Source: Planosporangium mesophilum
GTDB taxonomy: Bacteria > Actinomycetota > Actinomycetes > Mycobacteriales > Micromonosporaceae
DNA length: 64,000 nucleotides
Direction of reading: 5' to 3'
Assembly: GCF_016863255.1 (NCBI RefSeq)
Contig: NZ_BOON01000003.1
Span: 1 to 64,000, forward strand
Part shown: positions 9,243 to 63,923 of the stretch, piece by piece
Layout: each line of letters begins with the position of its first letter
Position numbering within the stretch: position 1 is the first letter of the stretch
Position numbers and translations under genes: made by a program
The notes under the pieces: generated by a model
Told to the model about the DNA's origin: nothing
The model's input: the letters and a program-made list of their open reading frames with translations, nothing else
The model's database searches: none

Positions 9243-10100
9243 GTGGTGCGTACCCCTCGGCTGTTGCTCCTCGCCGCCTCGGTGCTGGCTCTCGCGCTGA
9301 GCGCCTGTGCCCGTGGCGCGACCGCTGATCCCGGCGGATTCGGCCGCTCCGGCGCGTCGGCGTCCCCGGCCAGCCCGACCCCCAGCCCCAGTCCGTCCGC
9401 CCTTCCCGGCGCCACCCGTGCCGGTCTGCGCCCGCCGGTGGTCACCAACGGCCCGCGGACCGGCAACAAGGTCGCGTTGACCTTCGACGCCGACATGACC
9501 GACTCCATGCTGTTCAACCTGGCCAGCGGCCGGGTGAAGTCGTACGCGAACATCAAGGTCATCGACATCCTGGAGAGCCGCCAGGTGCCGGCCACGTTCT
9601 TCCTCACCGGCGAGTGGGCCGAGCGGTACCCGGACGTGGCCCGGCGGCTCGCTGCCGACCCGCGCTTCGAGCTGGGCAACCACTCGTACAAGCATCAGGG
9701 CTTCACGCCGAACTGCTACCAGCTCGGTCAGGTGCCGCCGAACCTGATGACCGAGGACGTGGCGCGCACCTTCCGGGTGATCGAGCCGTTCGGTGGGCAC
9801 CAGACCAGGTACTTCCGCTTCCCAGGCGGCTGCCACGACGAGGCGGCCCTGGCGGCGCTGGCCCCGCTCGGCGTGACCGTCATCCAGTGGGACGTGGTCA
9901 GCGGCGACCCGTTCGCGACCGCGGCGGCGCCGATCGTGCACGCGGTGCTCTCCCAGGTCAAGGCGGGCTCGATCGTGGTGCTGCACGTGACCGAGGCCAA
10001 CGCGCAGTACACCGACGAGGCCCTGCCGCCGATCCTCGACGGCCTGCGCGCCAAGGGCCTGCAGCCGGTGACGCTGTCGGAGCTACTCAGCCAGCAGTAG
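9243..10100 (+). CDS. Lipoprotein polysaccharide deacetylase (NodB domain)
   Basis: This 285-aa protein has an N-terminal lipoprotein signal: a basic start, a hydrophobic run and the lipobox LSAC near residue 22. A Ser/Pro linker follows, then a NodB-type carbohydrate esterase domain. Metal-binding and catalytic motifs are visible: [11 protein letters not shown] (motif 1), GNHSYKH (the HxxxH of motif 2), RYFRFPGG (motif 3), and a late IVVLHVTE motif. It probably removes acetyl groups from peptidoglycan or another surface glycan outside the cell. The start is GTG 9243, followed at once by a second GTG. Confidence 0.88.
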
Positions 10101-11096
10101 GACCGCGTAGCACGCCAGCCAGTGCTCCACCATGTAGTCGCCCCCGGCGACGTGCGGCAGCGCCGCGTCCGCGTGCCGCCTGGCCGCCGTGAGCGCCGGC
10201 TCGATGCGCGGGTCGCCGTCGGGTAGCTCCTCGGCGATGCGCCGCCAGCACCAGGCCCGGCTGGCGTTGAGCCCGTGCAGGTGGGCGATGTAGCCGTCGC
10301 TGGAGTCGGAGACGATCGCCGGGGTGAACAGGCTCGCCGGCTCGCCGTCGGCGATGCCGGGCAGGAACGCGCCCAGCCAGTCGGCGAAGTCCGGCTGCGG
10401 CAGGAGCTTCGACATCAGCTCGGCCTCGGTGAGCGCCGGCGAGAGGAAGTCCGTCCCCGACGGCTCCCAGCCGCCCGGGTAGTCGGTGTCGGTGGCGTAG
10501 AACCGGTTCGCGAGCGCCGTTATGCCGTCGCGCAGCCTCTTGTCGGCGTGTGTCCACGCCAGCGACAGCCCGAACGCGGTGTTGCTGTGCACCCCGTAGC
10601 GCACCGGGTAGGTCGCCTTCGGGAACCAGTCGAGAAAGTTACCGGTGATCGCCTCAGTCAACGGCGTGAGGCGCTCCGCCCAGCGCGCGCCGTCCGGGTC
10701 GTCCCACGTGGCCAGCTCGCCAGCGAGCTTCAGCGCCCAGCCCCAACCGTACGGACGCTCCCTGACGCCGTCGTGCGGGCGGGTGATGAACCGCGCCTCG
10801 GCCGCCAGCCCGTCGGGATTGAACTGCCCCTCCAGCGCGGCCCGGATCTCGTCGGCCGGTACGGCGTCACCCGCGACCTTCAACAGCCGTACGAGCATCC
10901 AGTGCATCTCGACGCAGGAGTGCCAGTCGAAGCTGCCGTAGAAGACCGGCGTGCGCTCGCGGGGGCGCCGCGGGAAGTCGCCCGGTCCGGTCATCAGGTG
11001 GTGGATGTCCGACGGGAACTCGCGCTCGATGTTCGTCAGCGCCACCCGGGCGTACTCGCCCGCGTGCGCGCGGAGTACGTCGCCCCATTCACCCAT
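10083..11096 (-). CDS. DUF2891 domain-containing protein
   Basis: This 337-aa soluble protein has an all-helical toroid-like pattern. The motifs FYGSFDWHSCVEMHW, ENRFYATDTDYPGGWEPSG and HLHGLNASRAW are typical of DUF2891. The family looks like a six-hairpin glycosidase-type fold, but its activity is not known. It starts at ATG 11096. Its 3' end overlaps the convergent deacetylase by 18 bases, and its 5' end overlaps the small Cys protein upstream by eight bases, suggesting it is the last gene of the leftward cluster that begins at 11806. Confidence 0.85.
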   Translation of the reverse strand: MGEWGDVLRAHAGEYARVALTNIEREFPSDIHHLMTGPGDFPRRPRERTPVFYGSFDWHSCVEMHWMLVRLLKVAGDAVPADEIRAALEGQFNPDGLAAEARFITRPHDGVRERPYGWGWALKLAGELATWDDPDGARWAERLTPLTEAITGNFLDWFPKATYPVRYGVHSNTAFGLSLAWTHADKRLRDGITALANRFYATDTDYPGGWEPSGTDFLSPALTEAELMSKLLPQPDFADWLGAFLPGIADGEPASLFTPAIVSDSSDGYIAHLHGLNASRAWCWRRIAEELPDGDPRIEPALTAARRHADAALPHVAGGDYMVEHWLACYAVLLLAE

Positions 11097-11346
11097 GCCG
11101 CTGACCCTGTCCGGCAGCCGCAGAGGCGCGGGTCCAGCCCAGGAACCGGGTGTACAGCAGGCCGGACGCGTGCGACGACAGGTCCTCGGCCGCGTCGACG
11201 AAGTACGCCGACATCAGCAGTCCGAGGCTGACCCGTGCCCGTTCGTACTCGGCGAGAAGCTGAACTCTCTTGGTACGGCACGGCCAGTCCGCTCCGCAGC
11301 CGGCGCAGGTCCACGCCGGCCGCATCGGTACGTGAAGGCCGGTCAT
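11089..11346 (-). CDS. Small Cys protein with a WPC motif (third of three)
   Basis: This 85-aa protein starts at ATG 11346. After HVPMRPAWTC comes CAGCGADWPC, so Cys-x2-Cys and Trp-Pro-Cys form a tight putative metal or redox site, followed by a helical remainder. Such short proteins are common in Streptomyces and Micromonospora beside XRE/DUF5753 regulators and have no demonstrated role; automatic labels such as flavin reductase should not be trusted. Its start overlaps the previous gene's stop (ATGA), which indicates translational coupling. Confidence 0.7.
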   Translation of the reverse strand: MTGLHVPMRPAWTCAGCGADWPCRTKRVQLLAEYERARVSLGLLMSAYFVDAAEDLSSHASGLLYTRFLGWTRASAAAGQGQRHG

Positions 11347-11543
11347 CGCCCGTACTGCCGCTTGATGATCATCCGCATCCGCTCCTCCATCGCCGGTTGG
11401 TTCGCGCGGCTCTCGGCATCCCTCGCCGCCAGGACGGCATCGCAGGGCCAGTGCTTCGCGCCGCAGGTACAGCCGTGGCGTAGCAGCCACCATGGCCGGG
11501 GCCTGTGGTAGGCCTTGATCCGGGCGATGTCCGCCGCTTCCAT
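11343..11543 (-). CDS. Small Cys protein with a WPC motif (second of three)
   Basis: This 66-aa protein starts at ATG 11543. It has a basic, Trp-rich N-terminus (HRPRPWWLLRHG), then CTCGAKHWPCDA, the same CxC/WPC pattern as its two neighbours, then a charged helix ending in IIKRQYGR. It ends in an ATGA overlap with the next gene. A role in metal binding or as an adaptor is possible, but that is inference only. The longer open frame upstream is antisense to nothing useful and lacks typical composition. Confidence 0.6.
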   Translation of the reverse strand: MEAADIARIKAYHRPRPWWLLRHGCTCGAKHWPCDAVLAARDAESRANQPAMEERMRMIIKRQYGR

Positions 11544-50437: not shown

Positions 50438-50512
50438 GCCCCCGTAGCTCAGGGGATAGAGCACCGCCCTCCGGAGGCGGGTGCGCAGGTTCGAATCCTG
50501 CCGGGGGCACCA
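50438..50512 (+). tRNA. tRNA-Arg (anticodon CCG)
   Basis: The full cloverleaf is visible: acceptor GCCCCCG paired with CGGGGGC, D stem GCTC/GAGC, anticodon stem CCGCC/GGCGG with loop CTCCGGA (anticodon CCG at 50471-50473), T arm GCAGG-TTCGAAT-CCTGC, and an encoded CCA at 50510-50512. The 3' half is a common attachment site for actinomycete integrative elements. Confidence 0.96.
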
Positions 50513-51301: not shown

Positions 51302-52684
51302 TCAACCCGCATGGGACATTGGATGGCCAAGCGCGGCCTGTATCCGCTGGCGTAGCACCTCACCCCCGCCGTCGAGGCACTTGGCGTAGATCTTCAGAAG
51401 GATCTCGACTGAGTGACCGGCCCACTCTGCAACCTGGGTTGGCGGCACTCCCCCGTTGAGCCAGGTCGACACTGCCGCATGCCGCAGGTCGTACGGCGTC
51501 CGGGCCAGCGGCGATGCTGCAACCTCGGGCGCGAACACCTCGGCGCGTGCCCTCTGCCAGGCACGGACGATGGTCAGCTTCGGCAGCTCGCCGTGGTTAC
51601 GCTCGCCCGTGAACAGCCGGCCGTCCGGCGCCGTACCGAAACGGTCGATGTGCTCATGCAGGAGCGCGGTCAACTCCGGTGGGCACGGCACCGTCCGAAT
51701 CTCGCCGCGTGCTCGCTGCTTGAGTTGTCGCCGGTCGCGGTTCTTCCCGCTGTCGGTCCACTCCTTGCCAGCGTGCGGCTCGGCCACGTCCAGGTGCAGC
51801 TCTCCCCACCCCTCGGCCGGGAGGGCCAGGTTGTGCCTGGCGAGGCTGACCGCCTCTTCGGGTCTAAGCGCCGCGAAGTAGAGGCAGCCGAAGAAGGCGA
51901 CCAGGCGGGGGCCGCTGCGCTGCTGTGCGCGTACGGCGTTGAGCAGCGTGCGGGCCTGAATCGGGTTGGCTACGGATCGGCGGTCGACGGCATGCACCGT
52001 CTTCGGCGCGGTCCACTTCAGAGCCGGTATCGGATTGGTGCTCAAGAGCTTTACCTCGACCGCGTATTCGGCGGCGGCGTTGAGGATCTTCCGTTTCCGA
52101 CTGACCACGCTCGGCGCGGCCGGGCCGCCGTCGAGTCGTACGGTCAGGGCGTCCAGTACCGGCCGCAGCACCTCCGGTTTGCTGAGCGCCGATACCGGCC
52201 GCGTGTGGGTTTGGACCCACCGCAGCGCGCTGCGAATGTCGGAGGGGCAGTCAGGGTCGTTGCGCTTGTTGGTGTTGAATGCCCAGCGGCACAGCGCCGA
52301 CCGGATTAGCTTGTCATCCGGCTTGCCCTTGTCGTTGACGAACATCGCGGTCGTCACCGCGGTCAGCGCCTCGGCGTGGGTGCGGCGGGTAGTGGCCGCT
52401 ACGCGGGGCCACTTCATGTCGACGTACGCGCAGGCGAACTCGTACCACGACATGTCACCGGCTGCCCGCCGCATCGACACCGGGCGGCCCGACTCGGTAT
52501 CGAAGGCCTCGCCTTTCCTGGCCGCCGACACCAGCTCGGAGCGGAAGCTCTCGGCTAGCGCCTTTTGCTTGAACGGCTCCTTCCATGGCTTGCCGGCCAC
52601 GCCCCATCGCACCCAGTAGGTGTTGCCCCGCGCTCCCTTGTAGACCTCGGTCTTCCAGATCCGAACGTCGTACGTGTTGCCCAT
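51302..52684 (-). CDS. int: Tyrosine recombinase (site-specific integrase)
   Basis: This 460-aa integrase has an N-terminal arm-binding/SAM-like region (FACAYVDMKWPRVAATTRRTH). The C-terminal catalytic domain has the Arg of AALRPEEAVSL, PYDLRHAAVSTWLNGG, AEWAGHS and the nucleophilic Tyr in LLKIYAKC. It catalyses integration at an attachment site, probably the 3' end of a tRNA gene. ATG 52684 overlaps the xis stop (ATGA), so the pair is translationally coupled. The longer open frame to 52837 lies out of phase over xis. Confidence 0.93.
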   Translation of the reverse strand: MGNTYDVRIWKTEVYKGARGNTYWVRWGVAGKPWKEPFKQKALAESFRSELVSAARKGEAFDTESGRPVSMRRAAGDMSWYEFACAYVDMKWPRVAATTRRTHAEALTAVTTAMFVNDKGKPDDKLIRSALCRWAFNTNKRNDPDCPSDIRSALRWVQTHTRPVSALSKPEVLRPVLDALTVRLDGGPAAPSVVSRKRKILNAAAEYAVEVKLLSTNPIPALKWTAPKTVHAVDRRSVANPIQARTLLNAVRAQQRSGPRLVAFFGCLYFAALRPEEAVSLARHNLALPAEGWGELHLDVAEPHAGKEWTDSGKNRDRRQLKQRARGEIRTVPCPPELTALLHEHIDRFGTAPDGRLFTGERNHGELPKLTIVRAWQRARAEVFAPEVAASPLARTPYDLRHAAVSTWLNGGVPPTQVAEWAGHSVEILLKIYAKCLDGGGEVLRQRIQAALGHPMSHAG

Positions 52685-52962
52685 CAGGCGGCCTCCTCTT
52701 CCAGGGATGCGAGCCAGTTCTCGTAGTCGCTGCGGCGGATGCGGAGGTCGCCGTTGGGCAGCTTGAGGCACGGGGGCGCCTTCCGCTTCGTCCGCCAGTC
52801 GTAGAAGGTCGACCGGGTGATGCCGAGGTCCTCGCATACCTCGGCGATCGTCAGGTGCCTAGGGTTGGCGCTTCGCTGCTGACGGCCACCGGCACGGGTC
52901 GCGGGCACAGCGGCGAGGCCGGTCGTCTTCTGAGCGGCCCTGTCGGGCGGACTGGTTCGCAC
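52684..52962 (-). CDS. xis: Excisionase-like helix-turn-helix protein
   Basis: This 92-aa protein ends with a MerR/AlpA-type helix-turn-helix: LTIAEVCEDLGITRSTFYDWR, then RIRRSDYENWLASLEEE. Its role would be to bend DNA and steer the integrase to excision. I chose GTG 52962 (VRTSPPDRAAQK) behind GGAAAGG. The frame stays open up to ATG 53178, which overlaps the repA stop and would give 164 aa, but that extension has unusual composition and crosses a hairpin and the iteron block. Confidence 0.75.
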   Translation of the reverse strand: MRTSPPDRAAQKTTGLAAVPATRAGGRQQRSANPRHLTIAEVCEDLGITRSTFYDWRTKRKAPPCLKLPNGDLRIRRSDYENWLASLEEEAA

Positions 52963-53157: not shown

Positions 53158-53266
53158 TGTCACTCGGGTGTCACTCATGATCAGAACCGTTTCCGCAGGT
53201 CAACATGGGTTGAGTGACACGAGTGACACGAGTGACAGTGCCGGCCAGGTCGGTTGTGTCACTCGG
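53158..53266. repeat. Iteron block 1 (TGTCACTCG family) at the 3' end of repA
   Basis: Six copies of TGTCACTC(G) occur in both orientations: 53158, 53169 and 53257 forward, and three abutting GAGTGACAC/G copies at 53212, 53221 and 53230. The abutting copies lie inside the repA gene and encode its VTRVTRVT ending. A related block lies at 62698-62810 in the opposite orientation. Confidence 0.85.
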
Positions 53267-54286
53267 CGGCAGGGCGTACCGGCCGGCGGCGTCGCAGGTC
53301 ACCTGCGCGTCGGCGAGCATCCGGGTACAGGTCTGGCGGATCGTGGCGGCGTTGAGCCCGGTGCCCTCCGCGATCGCCTTCGGCGTGCTGGCGGGATGGG
53401 CGCGCAGGTAGCGGGTGATGGCGGCGCGGGTGTCGCTGCGGGTGTAGTCCTCGGGCGGCCCGTCGAGTAGCCGCCACGCCCCGGACGCGGGCTGGAAATC
53501 CAAGGCGTACTCGGCCTCTTCCACGTCGCGGCCGGTGACGTGCAGCGCCCCGCCGGCCTCGCCGCGTGCCCGCTTGAGTACGAGGGTGGCGTCGGCGGCC
53601 CCTGCGATGCCGTTGGTACCGGACACCTCGGCGAGGAAGTCATCCGAGCTGGCCTTGCGCACGTGGTGAACCAGGAGAATCGCGACGCCGTAGGCGTCGG
53701 CCACTTTCTTGATCCGCCCGACGGCGGCATAGTCAGCGTCGTACGCCGAGGCCCCCGGCGGGGACATGCCGCGAATCTTGGCGAACACGTCGATGCAGAC
53801 CATGCGGGCGTCGCGGTTGCGGTCCAGCCACGCCGCGATGGCTTCATCCCCACCTTGGGTCAGCGGCGGGCACGCGACGGCGAGGGTGAGCCCGGCCGGG
53901 GCCGGCTGACCGCCGAGGATCTTTCCCATGCGCGACTGCAACCGGCGCGGGGTGTCTTCCAGCGCGAGGTAGAGCACCGGGCCGCCGTCGACCGGGATGG
54001 AGTCGAACGCGTAACCACCGGCCGCGACGGCCAAGCCGAGGCCGAGCGACAGCCACGACTTGCCGACCTTCGGCGGGCCGGCGAGCAGGTTGACGCCCTC
54101 GGCGAGTACGCCGGGTACGGCCCAGTTCGGCGGCGGGAACTCCATCGCCATGAGGTCGGCCGCGCTCCACGAGGTGGGCAGCCGGGCCGGGCCGCGCCGG
54201 GCCGACACCGGTTGCGGTGTCAGAACTTCGGCGGCGTCGTCGGCGTCCACGATGTGCAGACGGGGTGCCTGCTCCGGACTGGTCAT
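53171..54286 (-). CDS. RepA-like AAA ATPase (replication helicase-type)
   Basis: This 371-aa protein has Walker A GPPKVGKS at residues 70-77, then LYLALEDTPRRLQSRM, Walker B MVCIDVFAKI, and VAILLVHHVRKA with SGTNGIAGAAD. These match hexameric RepA/DnaB-like ATPases encoded on plasmids and phages. The C-terminal winged-helix region (SDTRAAITRYLRAHPASTPKAIAEGTG) is followed by a tail built from DNA iterons. I chose ATG 54286, overlapping the upstream stop. It most likely unwinds or loads at the element's origin, with the Prim-pol gene two places upstream. Confidence 0.85.
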   Translation of the reverse strand: MTSPEQAPRLHIVDADDAAEVLTPQPVSARRGPARLPTSWSAADLMAMEFPPPNWAVPGVLAEGVNLLAGPPKVGKSWLSLGLGLAVAAGGYAFDSIPVDGGPVLYLALEDTPRRLQSRMGKILGGQPAPAGLTLAVACPPLTQGGDEAIAAWLDRNRDARMVCIDVFAKIRGMSPPGASAYDADYAAVGRIKKVADAYGVAILLVHHVRKASSDDFLAEVSGTNGIAGAADATLVLKRARGEAGGALHVTGRDVEEAEYALDFQPASGAWRLLDGPPEDYTRSDTRAAITRYLRAHPASTPKAIAEGTGLNAATIRQTCTRMLADAQVTCDAAGRYALPPSDTTDLAGTVTRVTRVTQPMLTCGNGSDHE

Positions 54287-55128
54287 GCGGCTGCCTCCAG
54301 GTCGAACAGGGCCGGTTGGTCGCTGTGGGTGTGCGCGGCGGTGAGGACGTTGGTGCGCCAGAGCAGGGCGAAGCGCAGGCAGTTGGCGCAGTTGGCATGT
54401 GCGGTGCAGCCGGGTAACGGTCGGCCGCGGCGGCGGGCGTCTACCGACCACGCCATGGAGTCGGCCGAGGTCAGCCGGCTCCCGTGCCCGGTGAGGCCGA
54501 GGATTTTGAACCCGAACCCGTGTAGTCGGGTGACTCCGGCGGTGTGCAGGGCGGCGATGATGCGTCCGGCCTCGGCGGTGCCTTGCCGGCGGCAGACCGA
54601 CCCGAGGCCGACCAGCGGCGCGGCGGTGAGGTCGACGCGGGCGAGGGTCCAGTACAGGTCGACGCAGCGCAGGTAGTCATCGCGGGTGAAGCCCTGCACG
54701 ACCGGAATCACCGGCAGCTCGGGGGCCAGGTCGCGCAGCTGCGCGAAGTTGGCCACGGTGCGGCGCTGATGTTCGGCCACCGACAGCCGGGTACCGGCGA
54801 AGACGACCGGCCCCACCCGGCCGCCGTTGATGACAATCGGTTCGCACATCCAGTCCTGCGGGGCAGCCCACATCAGGTTGCCGATCTCGTCGCGGTAACG
54901 GCGTAGCCGGGCCACGTACGCGGCCGGGGTCACGGTCCACCGGCCGCACGTCTGCAACTCGGTGAACCCGCCCGAGTCGCACGCCCACGGCGCAGCTGCG
55001 ACCGGCAGCCGCTTGTAGACGCGCAACCGGCGGTCGGACACGAACAGCGCCACCTGCGCGGCGGCAACCTCGGGCTTGGCCAGCCAGCCCGGTTGGTGGG
55101 TGCCGAGCATGAACAGCGGCCCGCTCAT
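54283..55128 (-). CDS. TGT/DpdA-like deazapurine base-exchange family protein
   Basis: This 281-aa protein resembles tRNA-guanine transglycosylase/DpdA proteins. It has ACDSGGFTEL with Asp51 at the position of the general catalytic Asp, VIPVVQGFTRDDY (compare PVLQG), GLGSVCRRQGT (compare GVGS), LHGFGFKILGL, and a Cys cluster (PGCTAHANCANC) of possible zinc-binding type. DpdA relatives insert 7-deazaguanines into DNA, while TGT acts on tRNA. Here the gene is locked between Prim-pol and RepA by ATGA overlaps, which suggests a DNA role for the element (inference). No deazaguanine synthesis genes are in the window. Confidence 0.75.
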   Translation of the reverse strand: MSGPLFMLGTHQPGWLAKPEVAAAQVALFVSDRRLRVYKRLPVAAAPWACDSGGFTELQTCGRWTVTPAAYVARLRRYRDEIGNLMWAAPQDWMCEPIVINGGRVGPVVFAGTRLSVAEHQRRTVANFAQLRDLAPELPVIPVVQGFTRDDYLRCVDLYWTLARVDLTAAPLVGLGSVCRRQGTAEAGRIIAALHTAGVTRLHGFGFKILGLTGHGSRLTSADSMAWSVDARRRGRPLPGCTAHANCANCLRFALLWRTNVLTAAHTHSDQPALFDLEAAA

Positions 55129-56066
55129 GCCGCCACGCTCCGCGGCCGGTTGGCCCCGGCGCGGAAGCCGGAGTGGATGGTGCGCCGGGCGCCCGCGACC
55201 GGGTGGCCCTTGGCGACGGCGGCGCGTAGCAGCAGTTCCTCGGTGTCGGCGGCGTCCAGGGCGCCCCCGGCAACGAGTTGGCCGAGCGCGACCGCCGCGC
55301 CGTAGAGGGTGCGGTTGAGCGTGCCGTCCGGGGCGGCGGCGATGGCGTCGAGACTGTGTCCGATCGCGGCGTCAAGGTAGGCGGCCTGCCGCCCGGTGCC
55401 CAGCTCCACCGCGACGGGTTGCTGCGGTGGCAGAGGTGTGGGCGTGAGCCTGTCGGCCAGCCACGCGGGCAGCGGGGCGGGGTCGGCGTCGCGGGCGACG
55501 GTGTAGGGGTAGCTGCCGGCGACGCTGCCGGCGGCGACGACGTAGCCGCCGTGGGCGCGGGTGTCGATCAGCCAGCCCAGCAGCCCGGCGGTGTTCCGCA
55601 GCTGCGGGCCGGTGTCGGGGTGGCGGTAGTACAGGTGGGTGCCGCCGCGCCCGGTGGTGACGGCGTAGGTGTCGGCCGGGTAGGGCTGGCCGGCGCGATG
55701 GCACATACCGGCGAACACAGCGTCGCCGTCGCCGCACGGGCCGGCCTCCGGCGGCGGAGTCTGGCCCGGCTTGGGTACATCGAGGTCGACCACGACCAGC
55801 CCGGACGGGCCGCACGCGATCCCAACGTTGAACGAGGTGATGCGCCAAGCGCGGGTGATCCGGTCGGGGTCGGTGGTGGCGCGGGCCTCCCAACCGACGT
55901 GGGTCCCGACGGCGCGGCAGCGCGGGTCGCGGCCGGTGCAGTGCTCGGCGGCGTGGTCGGGGAAGGCGGGCCGCTTGTCGTTGTGGCGCAACGGAAAGAC
56001 GTGCCAGCCGCGCGCGGCGGCGTCCAGCGCCACCCGGCACAGCGCGGCCTTGCTGACGATGTTCAT
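55125..56066 (-). CDS. Bifunctional DNA primase/polymerase (Prim-pol)
   Basis: This 313-aa protein has the Prim-pol signature: WHVFPLRHNDKRPAF, the catalytic Asp pair in VVVDLDVP (Asp94, Asp96), and TGRGGTHLYYRHP with the catalytic His. The AHGGYVVAAGS motif closes the domain. The rest is helical. It makes primers, and possibly DNA, for replication of the excised element. Its stop overlaps the TGT-like gene start. Confidence 0.9.
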   Translation of the reverse strand: MNIVSKAALCRVALDAAARGWHVFPLRHNDKRPAFPDHAAEHCTGRDPRCRAVGTHVGWEARATTDPDRITRAWRITSFNVGIACGPSGLVVVDLDVPKPGQTPPPEAGPCGDGDAVFAGMCHRAGQPYPADTYAVTTGRGGTHLYYRHPDTGPQLRNTAGLLGWLIDTRAHGGYVVAAGSVAGSYPYTVARDADPAPLPAWLADRLTPTPLPPQQPVAVELGTGRQAAYLDAAIGHSLDAIAAAPDGTLNRTLYGAAVALGQLVAGGALDAADTEELLLRAAVAKGHPVAGARRTIHSGFRAGANRPRSVAA

Positions 56067-56748: not shown

Positions 56749-58971
56749 TTAGTCGGTGGCCGTTCTGCGGTTACGCTCCGCGATCGCGGCCAACAGGTCG
56801 GTGTGCTTGACGCCGCGCCGGGTGGTGGCCTTGCCGTCGATGCGCCGGCCCACATCTGCGACCTTCACCAGCGGGTGCGGCTTGAGCGCGGTGGTCAGCT
56901 GCGCGGCCTCCCACCCGCCGTATACGTCGGGGCGCAGCTCGGCCAGCAGCGCGCACAGCGTCTCGTTCCACGCGGCCTTCTCGTCGCCCGGCCAGATCTG
57001 CGCCAGGTCGGCGAGCACATCGGACACCGGGCCAACGGCGCGGGTCTGCTCGTCCGGGTGGGGCAGCGTGCCCGCGGCCACGCGCAGGGCGACCGCGCGG
57101 GCCACGATGCGGGCGGCGGCGGTGGTGTCGACGTAGAACGAGCGCACCGCCACCGGCTTGCCGAACCCGGCGAGGATGCCCCACCCGGCCTCGATGACCG
57201 GCTGGAAGACCGTCGCCCGGTGGCCGTTCTTGTACGCCGACGTGCCCAGGATCATGTCGTTGGCGGTCTGATCCGCGACGGACAGGCAGAACCGGGAGTT
57301 GACGTTGCGGGTAATGCCGGTGGGCAAGCTGTCCTTGTCCGGGATCTGGGTACCGATCAGGATGATCACGCCCAGCGCCCGGCCGAGCTTGATGACCTTC
57401 TCCAGGATCTCCCCGGCGTCCTTGCCGTACTTGCTGGTCATCAGCTCCTGCAACTCGTCAAACCACGCCACCAGCGGGTGCAGCCCCGACCCCTTCAACG
57501 ACGCCAACTCCGGGGTCACCTTGTTCTCCGGGGCCTTGCCTAGTCGGGCGTAGTGCTCGATGCGCTTGGAGCGGCGGCGGCACTCCTCATACAGCCACTC
57601 GATGAACGCGAAGCAGCGGGCCAGGGTCTCGTCATCGAAGCCGTTGCCGTACTCGGCCATCACCGGCTCCAACACCGCGAAGTCGCCCACGCCCTTGAGT
57701 TCGTAGCCCCGGATCTCGGCACGGGCATCCAGCGCGGCGGCCAGCACCAGGTCGCGCAGGGCGAACGTCTTACCCGAGCCCGGCTGACCGCCGAAGAGGT
57801 AGTTGCGGAACATCAGGTCGATGTCGACGGTGTTGAGCCGGGGGTCGGTGGCGAACGCGAACGCCTTGAACACGTCCACGCGGGCCGAGGTCGACAGCAG
57901 CGGCCACGCGGGCTGCTTCATCTGCGACGCGGGCTCGTAGCCCACCCACAGGGCCAGGCGGCCAGTGTGCCCCGGTGCCGGTTCGGGCCACACCTGATCC
58001 AGCGGCAGGCGCATAGCCGAGGCGAGCTTGCCCCGTCGGGCGACGACGTCGGCGGCCTCCACCCCATAGGGCAGGTCCACGATCGCGAGGTGGCCGGGGC
58101 CGTCGCGGTGGATGTCGACAGGGAACGAGATGGCCTTCGGGTCCTTGGCAACCGCCGAGTTGATGGCGGCCAGTTGCAGCGAGGTGAGCGCCCGGCGCAC
58201 CAGCTCGGCGGTCAGCTTGCGGTAGGTACGGGCCTCCGACACCCGGTCGGTCAGCCGCTTGTCGTCCGGGCGGCCCACCCGTGCCAGCAGCGGCACGGCG
58301 ACGGCCAGGGCGAGCCAGCGCCACCAGGCCGGTCCGACCGCCAGCGCGACCGCGCCGGTGGCGAGGGTGCCGGCGCCGAACGCGAGTACCCACCAGCGCC
58401 ACACCGACTGCCGCTGCCGGCGGGCGTCGAGCTTGAGCCAGGCGTCGGCGTCGCCCTTCGAGGCGGCGGCCTGGCGTAGTGCCCAGTTGCCCTCCTCGGC
58501 GGTGGCCCAGTGCAACACGCGGCCGGTGCCCCGGAACAGTCCGGCCGGCGCGTAGACGGCGGTCTTCGCCGCGTACTTCGGCGTCCGGACGGCGTGATAG
58601 GCGGCCACGTAGCCGGCGTACTTGGCCCACCACTTCGCGGCGGCCATCAGGGTTGCCCGCGAGCGTGCCCAATCAGCCAGGATCGGGCGACGCCGACCGG
58701 GGTCGAACGCCGACACCGGGATGTCGTCGGCGGCGTCGACCGGGCCGCCCACCCGCTGCGGGCTGTCGTCCACCGACTCCGCGTCGTCGGCGTCGAAGTC
58801 GTCGGTGATGTCGTCACGGTCAGCGTCGCCGGTGTCGTCACGGCTAGGCGTGCGGCGGGTCCGGGCGGCGTTGAGGTCGACCACGTCCGCGCCTTCGGCG
58901 TCGCTGGACAGGTCGGCTTCGGCGCGGGTCCAGTCGAACCCGTCGTGCGGTTCGGGGATGTTGCTGGTCAT
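56749..58971 (-). CDS. TraB/FtsK-SpoIIIE-type conjugative DNA translocase
   Basis: This 740-aa protein has an acidic N-terminal region, two membrane helices at about residues 192-212 and 216-232, then an FtsK-like motor. The motor has Walker A GGQPGSGKT (394-402), Walker B LVAWFDELQEL (Asp505, Glu506) and ILIGTQIPDKDSLPTGITRNVNSRF. The C-terminus is winged-helix-like (VADVGRRIDGKATTRRGVKHTDLL), the part that binds repeated transfer sites in known TraB proteins. It pumps double-stranded element DNA between mycelial cells and is the only large transfer protein here, as expected for an AICE. Confidence 0.93.
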   Translation of the reverse strand: MTSNIPEPHDGFDWTRAEADLSSDAEGADVVDLNAARTRRTPSRDDTGDADRDDITDDFDADDAESVDDSPQRVGGPVDAADDIPVSAFDPGRRRPILADWARSRATLMAAAKWWAKYAGYVAAYHAVRTPKYAAKTAVYAPAGLFRGTGRVLHWATAEEGNWALRQAAASKGDADAWLKLDARRQRQSVWRWWVLAFGAGTLATGAVALAVGPAWWRWLALAVAVPLLARVGRPDDKRLTDRVSEARTYRKLTAELVRRALTSLQLAAINSAVAKDPKAISFPVDIHRDGPGHLAIVDLPYGVEAADVVARRGKLASAMRLPLDQVWPEPAPGHTGRLALWVGYEPASQMKQPAWPLLSTSARVDVFKAFAFATDPRLNTVDIDLMFRNYLFGGQPGSGKTFALRDLVLAAALDARAEIRGYELKGVGDFAVLEPVMAEYGNGFDDETLARCFAFIEWLYEECRRRSKRIEHYARLGKAPENKVTPELASLKGSGLHPLVAWFDELQELMTSKYGKDAGEILEKVIKLGRALGVIILIGTQIPDKDSLPTGITRNVNSRFCLSVADQTANDMILGTSAYKNGHRATVFQPVIEAGWGILAGFGKPVAVRSFYVDTTAAARIVARAVALRVAAGTLPHPDEQTRAVGPVSDVLADLAQIWPGDEKAAWNETLCALLAELRPDVYGGWEAAQLTTALKPHPLVKVADVGRRIDGKATTRRGVKHTDLLAAIAERNRRTATD

Positions 58972-59347: not shown

Positions 59348-60124
59348 TCAGGCGACGGCGGACAGGGCCGGGGCGGTGGGCGCTGTCGACACGCTGTCGT
59401 CAGCCGGGCGGGGCATGTGGCGCTGCACGGTGCGCTCGGAGAGCTTGAGCCGGGCGGCGATCTGCGCCGGGGTCGCGTTCGGGGTCTTGGCGACAGCGCG
59501 GGCCACCCGGTCGGCGGCCGACGGCTGGCGTTTGGGCGTACGGGCCGGCTTGGGCTTGGGCGTGTTACGCGGTGCGAGAGTCGGCGCGGCGTCGCCGGCC
59601 GCGATCGGCGGTGTCGGGGTACCGGGGGCGGGGGCGGCGGCAGGCGCGGGCGGTGCCGCGTCGGTCGCCGTTTCGGCCACCTGCTCGGCGGCGGTGCCGG
59701 CGGCCCGGCGGGAGCCGGTCGCGATCAGGGCGCCGGTGGCCATCACCATCAGCCCGTCGACGGCGAGTGGGCCGATCGTGGCGGTGAGGGTGTCTTCGCG
59801 GTAGAAGGTGAGCAGCCCGGACAGGTGCCGGTAGGACACGACGGCGGCGACCAGCGCGACCGGGAGCAGGCCTAGGAAGCGCAGCGCGGTCCACCGGCGG
59901 CCGTCGGGCCAGGCGATCCGGGCGAAGATCTCCACGGCGACGAACAGAGCGATCGGCCAGAACACTGCGCCAACGACCGCACCGGTGTGCGGCGTCCAGT
60001 CGGCCGGCGCGTACTCGGGTGGAACGTAGGAGTGGGCGACGTTGGCGGCGACCGACACCGCGCCGCCGAGGATCGCGCCGGTGTAGGCCCAGCCGCGCCC
60101 GGACAGCTTCGCGACGGTGCGCAT
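59348..60124 (-). CDS. DUF2637 membrane protein with C-terminal helix-turn-helix
   Basis: This 258-aa protein has four membrane helices within residues 1-150 (including YTGAILGGAVSVAANVAHSY, IALFVAVEIFARIAW, PVALVAAVVSYRHL and AVDGLMVMATGALI), the DUF2637 pattern. A long Ala/Pro linker follows, then a helix-turn-helix-like end (ATPAQIAARLKLSERTVQRHM). Such spread-type proteins help distribute conjugative DNA along the mycelium. It overlaps the 55-aa gene by one base. Confidence 0.88.
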   Translation of the reverse strand: MRTVAKLSGRGWAYTGAILGGAVSVAANVAHSYVPPEYAPADWTPHTGAVVGAVFWPIALFVAVEIFARIAWPDGRRWTALRFLGLLPVALVAAVVSYRHLSGLLTFYREDTLTATIGPLAVDGLMVMATGALIATGSRRAAGTAAEQVAETATDAAPPAPAAAPAPGTPTPPIAAGDAAPTLAPRNTPKPKPARTPKRQPSAADRVARAVAKTPNATPAQIAARLKLSERTVQRHMPRPADDSVSTAPTAPALSAVA

Positions 60125-61115: not shown

Positions 61116-61913
61116 ATGGCGGCGAAGTACGACAGCATCGCGGCTGACCTGCGACGCAGGATTCAGACCGGCGAGTGGAGCCCGGGTGCACGGTTGCCCA
61201 ATGAGGAGCCCGATCTGACCACGGAGTACAAGGTCAGCCTGAACACCCTGCGGAGAGCGCTCGACCTACTCGTATCCGAAGGACTGATCGACAAGCGACA
61301 GGGCATCGGCAACTTCGTTCGGCCGGCCCGGCAGCGCACGCGCCGGACGACCGAGCGCTACCAGTGGGAGAAGGACCGCGTTCACCTCCCGGAGTCGGAG
61401 CGCCGCGCCACTGGCGCAACCGAGCAGGACACCGGGCTGTCCCCGGCGGATCTTGCTTTTGCCGTCGAGTACGGCACCGAGGCGGCAAACGTAGAGCTAG
61501 CCGAGGCGTTCGGCGTCGCGGCCGGTACGCGTCTCCTTCGACGCGTCTACCGCACCGGCAAAAAGGGGGAAGGTGCGCCCCTCGGTGAGTCCACTTCTTA
61601 TCTCCTATACGACATGGTGTCAGCGAACCCGGATCTTCTGTTCGCCGAAAACGAACCGTGGCCCGGCGGAACAATGCACCAGCTATCGACGGTCGGAATC
61701 GAGATAGACCACATCGTTGATGAGGTAACGGCCCGGCCACCGACCGCCGACGAGATCGATAGGTTGGAGATACCGCCGGGTGTGGCGGTTATCGCACTCA
61801 GAAAGACTTCCGTAGACACGACGGGTCGCGTCGTTGAAGTCGCCGACATCGTATGGCCGGGAGACCGAACCACACTCGTGTACACGACCCAACTGAAGCG
61901 GTGGCAGCCTTGA
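61116..61913 (+). CDS. GntR-family (KorSA-like) transcriptional regulator with UTRA domain
   Basis: This 265-aa protein has an N-terminal winged helix-turn-helix, with YDSIAADLRRRIQTGEWSPGARLPNEEPDLTTEYKVS and NTLRRALDLLVSEGLIDKRQGIGNFV. The C-terminal UTRA ligand domain has GTRLLRRVYRTG and AVIALRKTSVDTTGRVVEVADIV. I chose ATG 61116 (MAAKYDSIA), with AGGAGG upstream. It is divergent from the transfer operon. By analogy with KorSA of pSAM2 it would repress transfer and excision. It is coupled to the glycosyltransferase gene (TTGA). Confidence 0.88.
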   Translation: MAAKYDSIAADLRRRIQTGEWSPGARLPNEEPDLTTEYKVSLNTLRRALDLLVSEGLIDKRQGIGNFVRPARQRTRRTTERYQWEKDRVHLPESERRATGATEQDTGLSPADLAFAVEYGTEAANVELAEAFGVAAGTRLLRRVYRTGKKGEGAPLGESTSYLLYDMVSANPDLLFAENEPWPGGTMHQLSTVGIEIDHIVDEVTARPPTADEIDRLEIPPGVAVIALRKTSVDTTGRVVEVADIVWPGDRTTLVYTTQLKRWQP

Positions 61914-62674
61914 ATAGCACCATCTCGATCATCACGCCGGTATTAGCGTCGGGCGCGAAGTACTTGGCCGAGGCGTACACGTCCATTCTGGCGCAGCAAC
62001 TTCCGGACGGTTGGGAATGGGAGTGGATCGTCCAGGAAGACGACGAGACCGGGAGCGTCGCGACACTCATTCCGCAGGATGATCAGCGGATCAGCTTTGG
62101 CCAGGGGCGGCACGGCGGTCCCGGCGTCGCGCGGACGCTCGCACTTGAGCGAGCCACCGGCAGCCTGATCAAGGAGTTGGATGTAGACGACCAACTGCTA
62201 CCCGGCGCACTCGCTCGTGATATCGAGATCCTGACGAGCCATCCCGACATCGGATGGACAACGTCAAAAGCTCTTGACCTGCTTCCGGACGGATCGACGG
62301 TTTGCTGGGATCAGGACGATCCACCCGGCGGGCGGCTGTCGGGTGAGTTTCTCTTCCAATTCTGGCTAGACCACGACTACCGACTCCCGGTCCTTCCCGC
62401 AACGATCTGTATCAAGCGGGAATTGCTTCTCGCGGTAGGCGGATGGATGGCCCTGCCGGCCTCTGAAGACTCCGGGATGCTGCTCGCGGCGAGCGTAATC
62501 CGTGACGGCTACTTCATTCCGGATAGTGGGCTGCTGTACCGGAAATGGCCCGGCCAAGCTACGGCCCAGGCAGCACACCTCGACCCTGTCGAGAGAAACG
62601 CGCGCATGGAGATAATTAAGGCGCGGGTCATGGCGATGCGCTCGGTGCCCCCGTTCTCTCCGCGACCGGCATAG
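61910..62674 (+). CDS. Glycosyltransferase family 2-like protein carried by the element
   Basis: This 254-aa GT-A-fold protein has STISIITPVLASGAKYLAEAYTSI, an EDDETGS stretch, GGPGVARTLALERATGSLIKELDVDDQLLPGAL with the Asp-x-Asp metal motif, and KRELLLAVGGWMALPASEDSGML. A nucleotide-sugar donor is likely; the acceptor is unknown. I chose TTG 61910, overlapping the regulator's stop. A GTG at 61901 is possible. Similar genes follow GntR genes in other actinomycete elements, and may modify the cell surface or a metabolite. Confidence 0.78.
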   Translation: MNSTISIITPVLASGAKYLAEAYTSILAQQLPDGWEWEWIVQEDDETGSVATLIPQDDQRISFGQGRHGGPGVARTLALERATGSLIKELDVDDQLLPGALARDIEILTSHPDIGWTTSKALDLLPDGSTVCWDQDDPPGGRLSGEFLFQFWLDHDYRLPVLPATICIKRELLLAVGGWMALPASEDSGMLLAASVIRDGYFIPDSGLLYRKWPGQATAQAAHLDPVERNARMEIIKARVMAMRSVPPFSPRPA

Positions 62675-62894: not shown

Positions 62895-63923
62895 TTGTTT
62901 GACCGCCAAGTACCCCGTACCGTTGTTGCTACTTTTGCGGCGATCGCTCTAATTTCCTTCGTTGTCGGCTCAGCGCTAGAGTTGAGACAGCATACCCTCC
63001 TCGCTGACCACCCCTACTGGGGAAACCTGTTGTCGGGAATAACGGGCTTCTCCTTTAGTGGCTTCGTTCTCGCAACTGTGCTTCGCTGGGTAATTGAGCA
63101 TGATCAGCGTCGCAAAAACGCCAACCTTCGTGTAGTCACTTATAAGGAAATCGCGGATCAGTCATGGAGAATTCTCTCCGCTGTAACCGTTGAGTGGACG
63201 AGGAAGGAAAGTGTTTCCAGACTGCGGAATGAGATTCAGTTGCCAAGTATCGATGGACTATTATTTATGGTTAAAGAGTCTATTGGCCACTTGGTCGACC
63301 ATGCCAACCGTATGTCCGAAGTGCATCACTTAATGAAATCTCTAATCGCAACCAATAATTATGGCCGTACGTTGATCGACCCCCGAATGATTAAAACTGG
63401 CGGCACATATCCCGCCCCGGTCCGCCTCATAGTTGCGGATGTGCCACTAATTCTCTCATGGGTAGGCGAGTCAGTTCTGCCTACCAGTCCTGGGTTCGCC
63501 CAGATGTCCGGCCGGCTAGCGCACCTACTCGACGGAGACGAACTGCGTGACGTTGTGGACGATGCCGACTTTCGCGCTGTATATCGCCCACTTCACAACA
63601 ATCTAAGTAACGTGAATATGCCGGTAACAATTGTGCACAACGCCCGCATTTCTGTCACTACTTCAGGTGAACGGGCAGTCCACATTGAGCATGATAGCTA
63701 CGTAACTGGCCTGTTTTCTGAAAGCGGTACAGAAATGGAGGCACTGGAGACATACGACAGGCTCTGCGATTATGTTGAATCTACCTTGAATGCATTGCGT
63801 GCTCGAGTTAGAACAATAGCCCTTCTGGCTATCCTCGCCGCCATTTGCGAACATCGAACAGGAAGAAATGAAAAAGTATTGCGGCGGGCGAGGGATCTTG
63901 TCAGCGTTTACCTCGACTTCTAG
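62895..63923 (+). CDS. AT-richer hypothetical protein with two N-terminal membrane helices
   Basis: This is a 342-aa protein. Helix 1 is about residues 8-27 (VVATFAAIALISFVVGSALE) and helix 2 about 45-65 (LLSGITGFSFSGFVLATVL). A large, mixed cytoplasmic domain follows with no recognised motif (RWVIEHDQRRKNANLRVVTYKE, later HIEHDSYVTGLF). Base composition and codon use are clearly more AT-rich than everything before it, pointing to transfer. It starts at TTG 62895 with only a weak AAGG upstream. It may be element cargo; a surface or defence role would be guesswork. Confidence 0.6.
   Translation: MFDRQVPRTVVATFAAIALISFVVGSALELRQHTLLADHPYWGNLLSGITGFSFSGFVLATVLRWVIEHDQRRKNANLRVVTYKEIADQSWRILSAVTVEWTRKESVSRLRNEIQLPSIDGLLFMVKESIGHLVDHANRMSEVHHLMKSLIATNNYGRTLIDPRMIKTGGTYPAPVRLIVADVPLILSWVGESVLPTSPGFAQMSGRLAHLLDGDELRDVVDDADFRAVYRPLHNNLSNVNMPVTIVHNARISVTTSGERAVHIEHDSYVTGLFSESGTEMEALETYDRLCDYVESTLNALRARVRTIALLAILAAICEHRTGRNEKVLRRARDLVSVYLDF

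Follow-up and report, generated by a model that had tools for sequence, protein, structure and literature searches.

A DpdA-like gene in the replication operon of an integrative and conjugative element of Planosporangium mesophilum

Organization of the element

The stretch of the P. mesophilum genome analysed here (contig NZ_BOON01000003.1, positions 1 to 64,000; hereafter the 64-kb window) contains a gene at 54283–55128 for a DpdA-like protein of the tRNA-guanine transglycosylase (TGT) superfamily. On sequence evidence, the gene lies in the replication operon of an actinomycete integrative and conjugative element (AICE). The features of this region are as follows.

54283..55128, minus strand: DpdA-like (PF23859) gene, ATG start, 281 residues, assigned by profile and predicted fold
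55125..56066, minus strand: Prim-Pol primase/polymerase (PF09250, 149.1 bits)
53171..54286, minus strand: AAA_25 (RepA-like) ATPase (PF13481, 124.5 bits)
52684..52908, minus strand: excisionase-like helix-turn-helix protein (HTH_17, 38.2 bits)
51302..52684, minus strand: tyrosine integrase (PF00589, 23.4 bits, below the cut-off of 27.1; Xer-type models, 15.8–18.6 bits), adjoining the tRNA attachment site
50438..50512, plus strand: tRNA-Arg (ccg), attachment site, 3' part repeated exactly
56749..58971, minus strand: FtsK/TraB-like transfer (Tra) protein (FtsK_SpoIIIE, PF01580, 19.2 bits, cut-off 24; TraB, 24.9 bits, cut-off 800)
59348..60124, minus strand: SpdB-like membrane protein, weak (DUF2637, 17.0 bits, under the cut-off)
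61116..61913, plus strand: GntR/UTRA regulator (GntR, 61.9 bits; UTRA, 50.6 bits)

The open reading frame 54283–55128 is confirmed as a real gene, beyond chance. ATGA overlaps join its start to the Prim-Pol gene and its stop to the start of the AAA ATPase gene, and both can be read in the sequence as the initial annotation had stated. The ratio of nonsynonymous to synonymous substitution rates (dN/dS) was 0.25–0.41 in six pairs by the Nei-Gojobori method (NG86), a crude method for these GC-rich genomes.

A 48-bp segment of the 3' part of tRNA-Arg is repeated exactly at 50465–50512 and at contig positions 64330–64377, 13,865 bp apart, which gives an element of about 13.9 kb at tRNA-Arg. The distal copy sits 330 bp beyond the window, and no second copy was found within the 64 kb. 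The integrase and Tra assignments lean on synteny and on the attachment repeat, because their profile matches fall below the model cut-offs. The FtsK/TraB-like protein shares 25–30% identity with genes of three other loci (L018, L019 and L021) and 94% with its counterpart at L014. The name SpdB for the membrane protein is our presumption. Together, the Prim-Pol match and the repeat support the AICE replication operon proposed in the initial annotation.

Two genes at the right end are likely cargo, namely those of a glycosyltransferase-2-like protein (61901–62674) and of a 342-residue protein with no Pfam match (62895–63923). The G+C content drops to 0.52–0.61 in this part of the element.

The window element shares the common AICE layout of an integrase and a Rep protein (Prim-Pol, RepAM or RepSA), with a putative Tra in the place of the AICE transfer protein (PMC3218068). 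In the passages of the AICE review used here (Ghinet et al. 2011, PMC3218068), a TGT/DpdA gene such as that of the window element is not named, and other proteins associated with Prim-Pol in AICEs are described as resembling no known replication or DNA-processing protein.

Predicted fold and putative active site

The 281-residue protein matched the Pfam profile PF23859 (DpdA) with 270.5 bits (E 1.8e-80, cut-off 27) and PHROG 1279, named queuine tRNA-ribosyltransferase, with 274 bits. The Pfam label DpdA spans a subfamily for which we found no proven activity. The motif blocks listed in the initial annotation are all present in the protein: DSGGF with Asp51, PVVQGF (142–147), GLGSVCRR (174–181), HGFGFK (203–208) and a cluster of Cys241, Cys247 and Cys250. 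In a Streptosporangiaceae group (L048, L052 and L061), DSGGF is replaced by DSRGF.

The AlphaFold model (predicted local distance difference test score, 94) has the TGT/DpdA barrel. Its top Foldseek match is PDB 7ui4, entitled DNA preQ0 insertase DpdA, which we take to be the DpdA type of Dpd islands; preQ0 is 7-cyano-7-deazaguanine. The likeness was revealed by fold comparison alone, as a sequence search of solved structures gave no TGT or DpdA match. The protein did not match the TGT profile PF01702 at E 1 or the DpdA models of PADLOC, and its identity to TGT is about 12%. D51, D223 and H203 are kept without exception (58/58 and 80/80) and align with D72, D215 and H196 of the DpdA class of phage 9g; we presume that these residues are catalytic. 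Lys208 is also invariant in the PF23859 family, and Thr occupies this position in 9g DpdA.

Judged from the profile match and the predicted model, the window protein is a DpdA-like enzyme of the TGT superfamily with an intact putative active site. The TGT/DpdA-like identity given in the initial annotation is thus borne out by profile, fold and both conserved putative catalytic Asp residues. Lack of a TGT-like barrel, or loss of both Asp residues, had been named beforehand as evidence to the contrary; the barrel is present, and D51 and D223 are kept.

The substrate could be tRNA or another RNA, with altered decoding in a host without its own TGT. However, the gene shares an operon with replication genes, the top Foldseek match is a DNA enzyme, and the protein, at 281 residues, lacks the additional RNA-binding segments seen in archaeal TGT (577 residues in the matched chain). 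We regard an RNA target as quite improbable.

Distribution and replicase neighbours

Carriers of PF23859 made up 9 of the 296 genomes in the class panel (8 above the cut-off), 37 of 392 in a single-genus panel (evidently Streptomyces) and 25 of 270 in that of the host family, Micromonosporaceae. PF23859 also turned up in 86 plasmid records and in 399 phage records, of which 391 come from Mycobacterium. Neighbourhoods were tallied for the 62 of 80 named genome loci with at least 5 kb on each side. An integrase and Tra accompany the gene in 40 loci, and an integrase or excisionase with both Tra and Prim-Pol in 33, while 16 loci are without integrase, Tra and Prim-Pol. In a set of 90 loci, Prim-Pol lies within 7 kb in 51 (27 of which also have a RepAM-like gene), RepSA in 8 and neither in 31, and on the tree of these loci at least three changes of the RepSA label are forced by the starred branches. 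Ten adjoining genes were scanned; six were RepSA, one DUF3631 (RepAM), one DUF3987, one a serine recombinase and one unmatched.

According to these profile assignments, the DpdA-like gene repeatedly neighbours unrelated replicases of AICEs (RepSA, or Prim-Pol together with AAA or RepAM). This pattern suits action on element DNA better than involvement in a single mechanism of replication. The protein might instead aid the replicase at the origin, through base release or a covalent DNA intermediate, and leave no lasting modified base; such a structural or DNA-processing role would agree with the gene order and the overlaps with replication genes. However, the gene accompanies unrelated replicases, occurs in some phages with no replicase beside it and is absent from most genomes (AICEs without the gene were not counted), which makes this role very improbable.

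The arrangement had been called unusual in the initial annotation. It recurs in dozens of AICE-like loci; nevertheless, literature searches, whose results were mostly seen as listings, gave no published description of an AICE-borne DpdA arrangement.

Supply of preQ0 in the host

The host genome, which is 98.55% complete, contains three copies of PF23859, all open (contigs C3, C82 and C50; loci L002, L014 and L013). One of the further copies belongs to a second Prim-Pol/DpdA/AAA arrangement and is 78% identical to the window protein, and one adjoins a RepSA replicase. QueC, tRNA-TGT (PF01702) and YhhQ gave no match in the host genome at E 0.001; the same searches were positive in 12 (QueC), 14 (TGT) and 9 (YhhQ) of 14 control genomes. 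Therefore, the host has no known route to make or import preQ0, and an unknown route may exist. A supply of preQ0 is not a strict requirement for calling a protein DpdA, as orphan DpdAs are an established class (PMC6884629). The initial annotation had supposed that precursors are made by host genes elsewhere and had called for a genome search for queC. That search did not bear it out, and we dropped the idea that this genome makes the precursor. A tblastn search of the window gave no QueC, QueD or QueE; of these three, QueC alone was sought across the whole genome.

These negative results would suit a relic or useless passenger in hosts without preQ0. However, the dN/dS values, the three open copies and the invariant putative active site argue against this view, and we consider it extremely improbable.

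Possible association with Dpd islands

In a profile alignment of low probability (11.6%), the Q/H/D residues of the Dpd-island DpdA line up with the window protein. The DpdA of 7ui4 has 413 residues as against 281 in the window protein. Dpd islands carry DpdB, DpdC and DpdD with preQ0 genes, whereas the neighbours in the window are Prim-Pol, the AAA ATPase, Tra, the integrase and small genes.

QueC was used to trace preQ0 synthesis; matches of at least 60 bits were counted in the class panel, and a top class of at least 240 bits was set post hoc. Matches of about 18–30 bits were discounted as related ATPases: most span only a small portion of a long frame, and models such as Asn_synthase and NAD_synthase also score on a real QueC. 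In the class panel, QueC of at least 60 bits was present in one of the eight above-cut-off carriers and in 9 of 296 genomes overall. With all QueC matches counted, QueC was found in 7 of 37 carriers and 41 of 355 other genomes of Streptomyces (p 0.19), and in 7 of 25 carriers and 38 of 245 others of Micromonosporaceae (p 0.15). For the top class, the corresponding numbers were 5/37 versus 18/355 (p 0.054) and 5/25 versus 20/245 (p 0.066), and the pooled odds ratio was 2.87 (p 0.0098, with the post hoc threshold and kinship ignored).

In a sample of 74 genomes chosen by similarity, QueC was found at E 1e-10 in 30. The raw contrast with the class panel (30/74 versus 9/296, Fisher p 2e-16) was not relied on, because the sample consists of genomes of close relatives with another taxonomic mix and the QueC cut-offs were unequal. 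Among the Streptomyces of this sample, top-class QueC was present in 7 of 29, compared with 23 among the 392 panel genomes (p 0.002; the sets partly overlap). Genome size does not account for the association in the Streptomyces panel, where the mean sizes were 9.3 Mb for the 37 carriers, 8.4 Mb for the 23 genomes with top-class QueC and 8.5 Mb for 20 of the non-carriers listed.

DpdB and an island DpdA were present in 35 of the 38 top-class QueC regions fetched; the three exceptions (L137, L172 and L173) have top-class QueC and no Dpd genes in the fetched stretch. All 10 genomes with both PF23859 and top-class QueC contain DpdB and the island DpdA, four of them judged through a locus with identical contig and coordinates. 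Island genes of representative loci were confirmed by PADLOC and Pfam. Close linkage between the element gene and the island was not seen in G517, G797, G833 and G931, where the two are at least 0.3 Mb apart on one contig. Two pairs are nearer to each other, at 38 kb in G983 and about 59 kb in G678, but the QueC match there is of a lower class and the PF23859 match is weak or broken.

Carriers thus appear to lean towards genomes with preQ0-making Dpd islands. This association is suggestive only, because the threshold was chosen after the classes had been seen, no phylogenetic correction was made and most carrier genomes are without QueC.

Viral relatives and proven DpdA enzymes

Of 252 viral loci, 80 were kept and examined. 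Matches to QueC, QueD or QueE lie near the PF23859 gene in three of them (L223, L225 and L231). The order is QueC-QueD-DpdA with overlapping genes in L223 (8947–10768), and QueC, a 131-residue gene, QueE, QueD and DpdA in L231 (7749–10873). In L225 (around 10000–11500), a QueC piece is located downstream of DpdA, and QueE is matched close by. The called genes of these loci include no recognisable DpdA of another class, and all three match the window residues at 30 checked positions, except that Cys241 is His in L225.

The mycobacteriophages Yuna and Frankicide possess members of the same family, PF23859/PHROG 1279 (585 bits for Yuna), with 48–52% identity to the window protein. Their genes sit in phage genomes, unlike the AICE operon of the window, and that of Yuna is two genes from an integrase gene. 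No preQ0 gene is annotated beside them in the stretches examined. DpdA of the phage 9g/Rosebush type aligns with the window protein in its D/H/D residues and predicted fold; however, it is accompanied by FolE, QueD, QueE and QueC genes in 9g and Arbiter, unlike the window gene. In Arbiter (species Rosebushvirus rosebush), the 9g-class gene is followed by QueC, QueD, QueE and FolE, whereas the PF23859-class gene of Frankicide (Pegunavirus) has no such neighbours in the stretch examined. Orion, a phage with an orphan DpdA, is presumably grouped with Pegunavirus too.

Insertion of 7-deazaguanine into DNA has been demonstrated for 9g DpdA (PMC6884629). Two orphan DpdAs without a precursor pathway, which may lie outside PF23859, also left a low level of mark: 2'-deoxy-7-amido-7-deazaguanosine (dADG) amounts to about 0.02% of G in the DNA of phage 7-11 (PMC6884629) and about 0.13% in that of MED16, whose authors propose that preQ0 comes from the host or the environment (PMC8306585).

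Discussion

The explanation that we propose, and to which we give an even chance, is that the protein is a DNA preQ0 transglycosylase dependent on its host: given preQ0 from the host, it would mark the element during replication, perhaps so as to evade Dpd restriction, and in P. mesophilum it would be idle. Working by the TGT mechanism, the DpdA-class enzyme would replace guanine in DNA with preQ0 or a closely related 7-deazaguanine. Since its translation is coupled to the replicase genes, its target would be AICE DNA that has just been replicated. Because the element has no preQ0 genes, it would depend on a preQ0-making host, which in these actinomycetes would usually be one with a Dpd restriction-modification island. 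In such a host, the mark could make the multicopy element look like self to Dpd or protect it from other restriction. In the present host, without known preQ0 genes, the enzyme would be idle or swap G for G. The fold, the conserved residues, the operon, its recurrence, the lack of the host genes sought and the preQ0 genes near three viral relatives are computed results, whereas we infer DNA as the substrate, preQ0 as the base and restriction evasion as the benefit; DNA modification for restriction evasion, already suggested in the initial annotation, is plausible, with modest support from the comparisons. A more specific version can be put forward only tentatively: in a 'borrowed self-mark' counter-defence, preQ0 made by the host Dpd island to mark host DNA would be written on the new DNA of the element, which would then be taken for self. 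The arrangement would have arisen with several unrelated replicases and would be silent in hosts without preQ0.

Several observations weigh against the proposed transglycosylase. Besides the missing QueC match in the present host, no QueC, QueD or QueE gene was found within the stretch examined for any of 91 genomic loci, including the window. The pooled association for all QueC matches is weaker (odds ratio 1.94, p 0.065), and QueC is absent from 30 of 37 Streptomyces carriers, 18 of 25 Micromonosporaceae carriers and 44 of the 74 genomes in the similarity sample. PF23859 does not match the proven 9g DpdA at E 0.01. According to the parts of the phage studies used here, the DNA of Orion is without 7-deazaguanine (PMC6884629), which is expected because neither Orion nor its host makes preQ0; dADG in MED16 had little effect on the restriction enzymes tested (PMC8306585), and EcoRI is not stopped by the preQ0 deoxynucleoside alone (PMC6884629). 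Moreover, in a Dpd host the DpdAB of the island could already mark the element.

Some of these points would equally suit a TGT-type exchanger of the same kind that inserts another base, not a QueC-derived 7-deazaguanine, and works in hosts without preQ0. Most carriers are without QueC, the family is distinct from the proven 9g class with its Thr in place of Lys208, and the mass spectrometry table for Orion covers 7-deazaguanines only (PMC6884629). However, the viral members beside preQ0 genes do not differ from the window protein at any of the 30 positions checked, save Cys241 in L225; we regard another base as unlikely.

The recurrence of an orphan DpdA-like enzyme in AICE replication operons bears on the role of orphan DpdA genes, which formed the largest group in a 2019 survey (76 phages among 182 viruses in all; PMC6884629). 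If the proposed preQ0 transglycosylase is real, mobile elements would protect themselves using the host's own defence metabolite.
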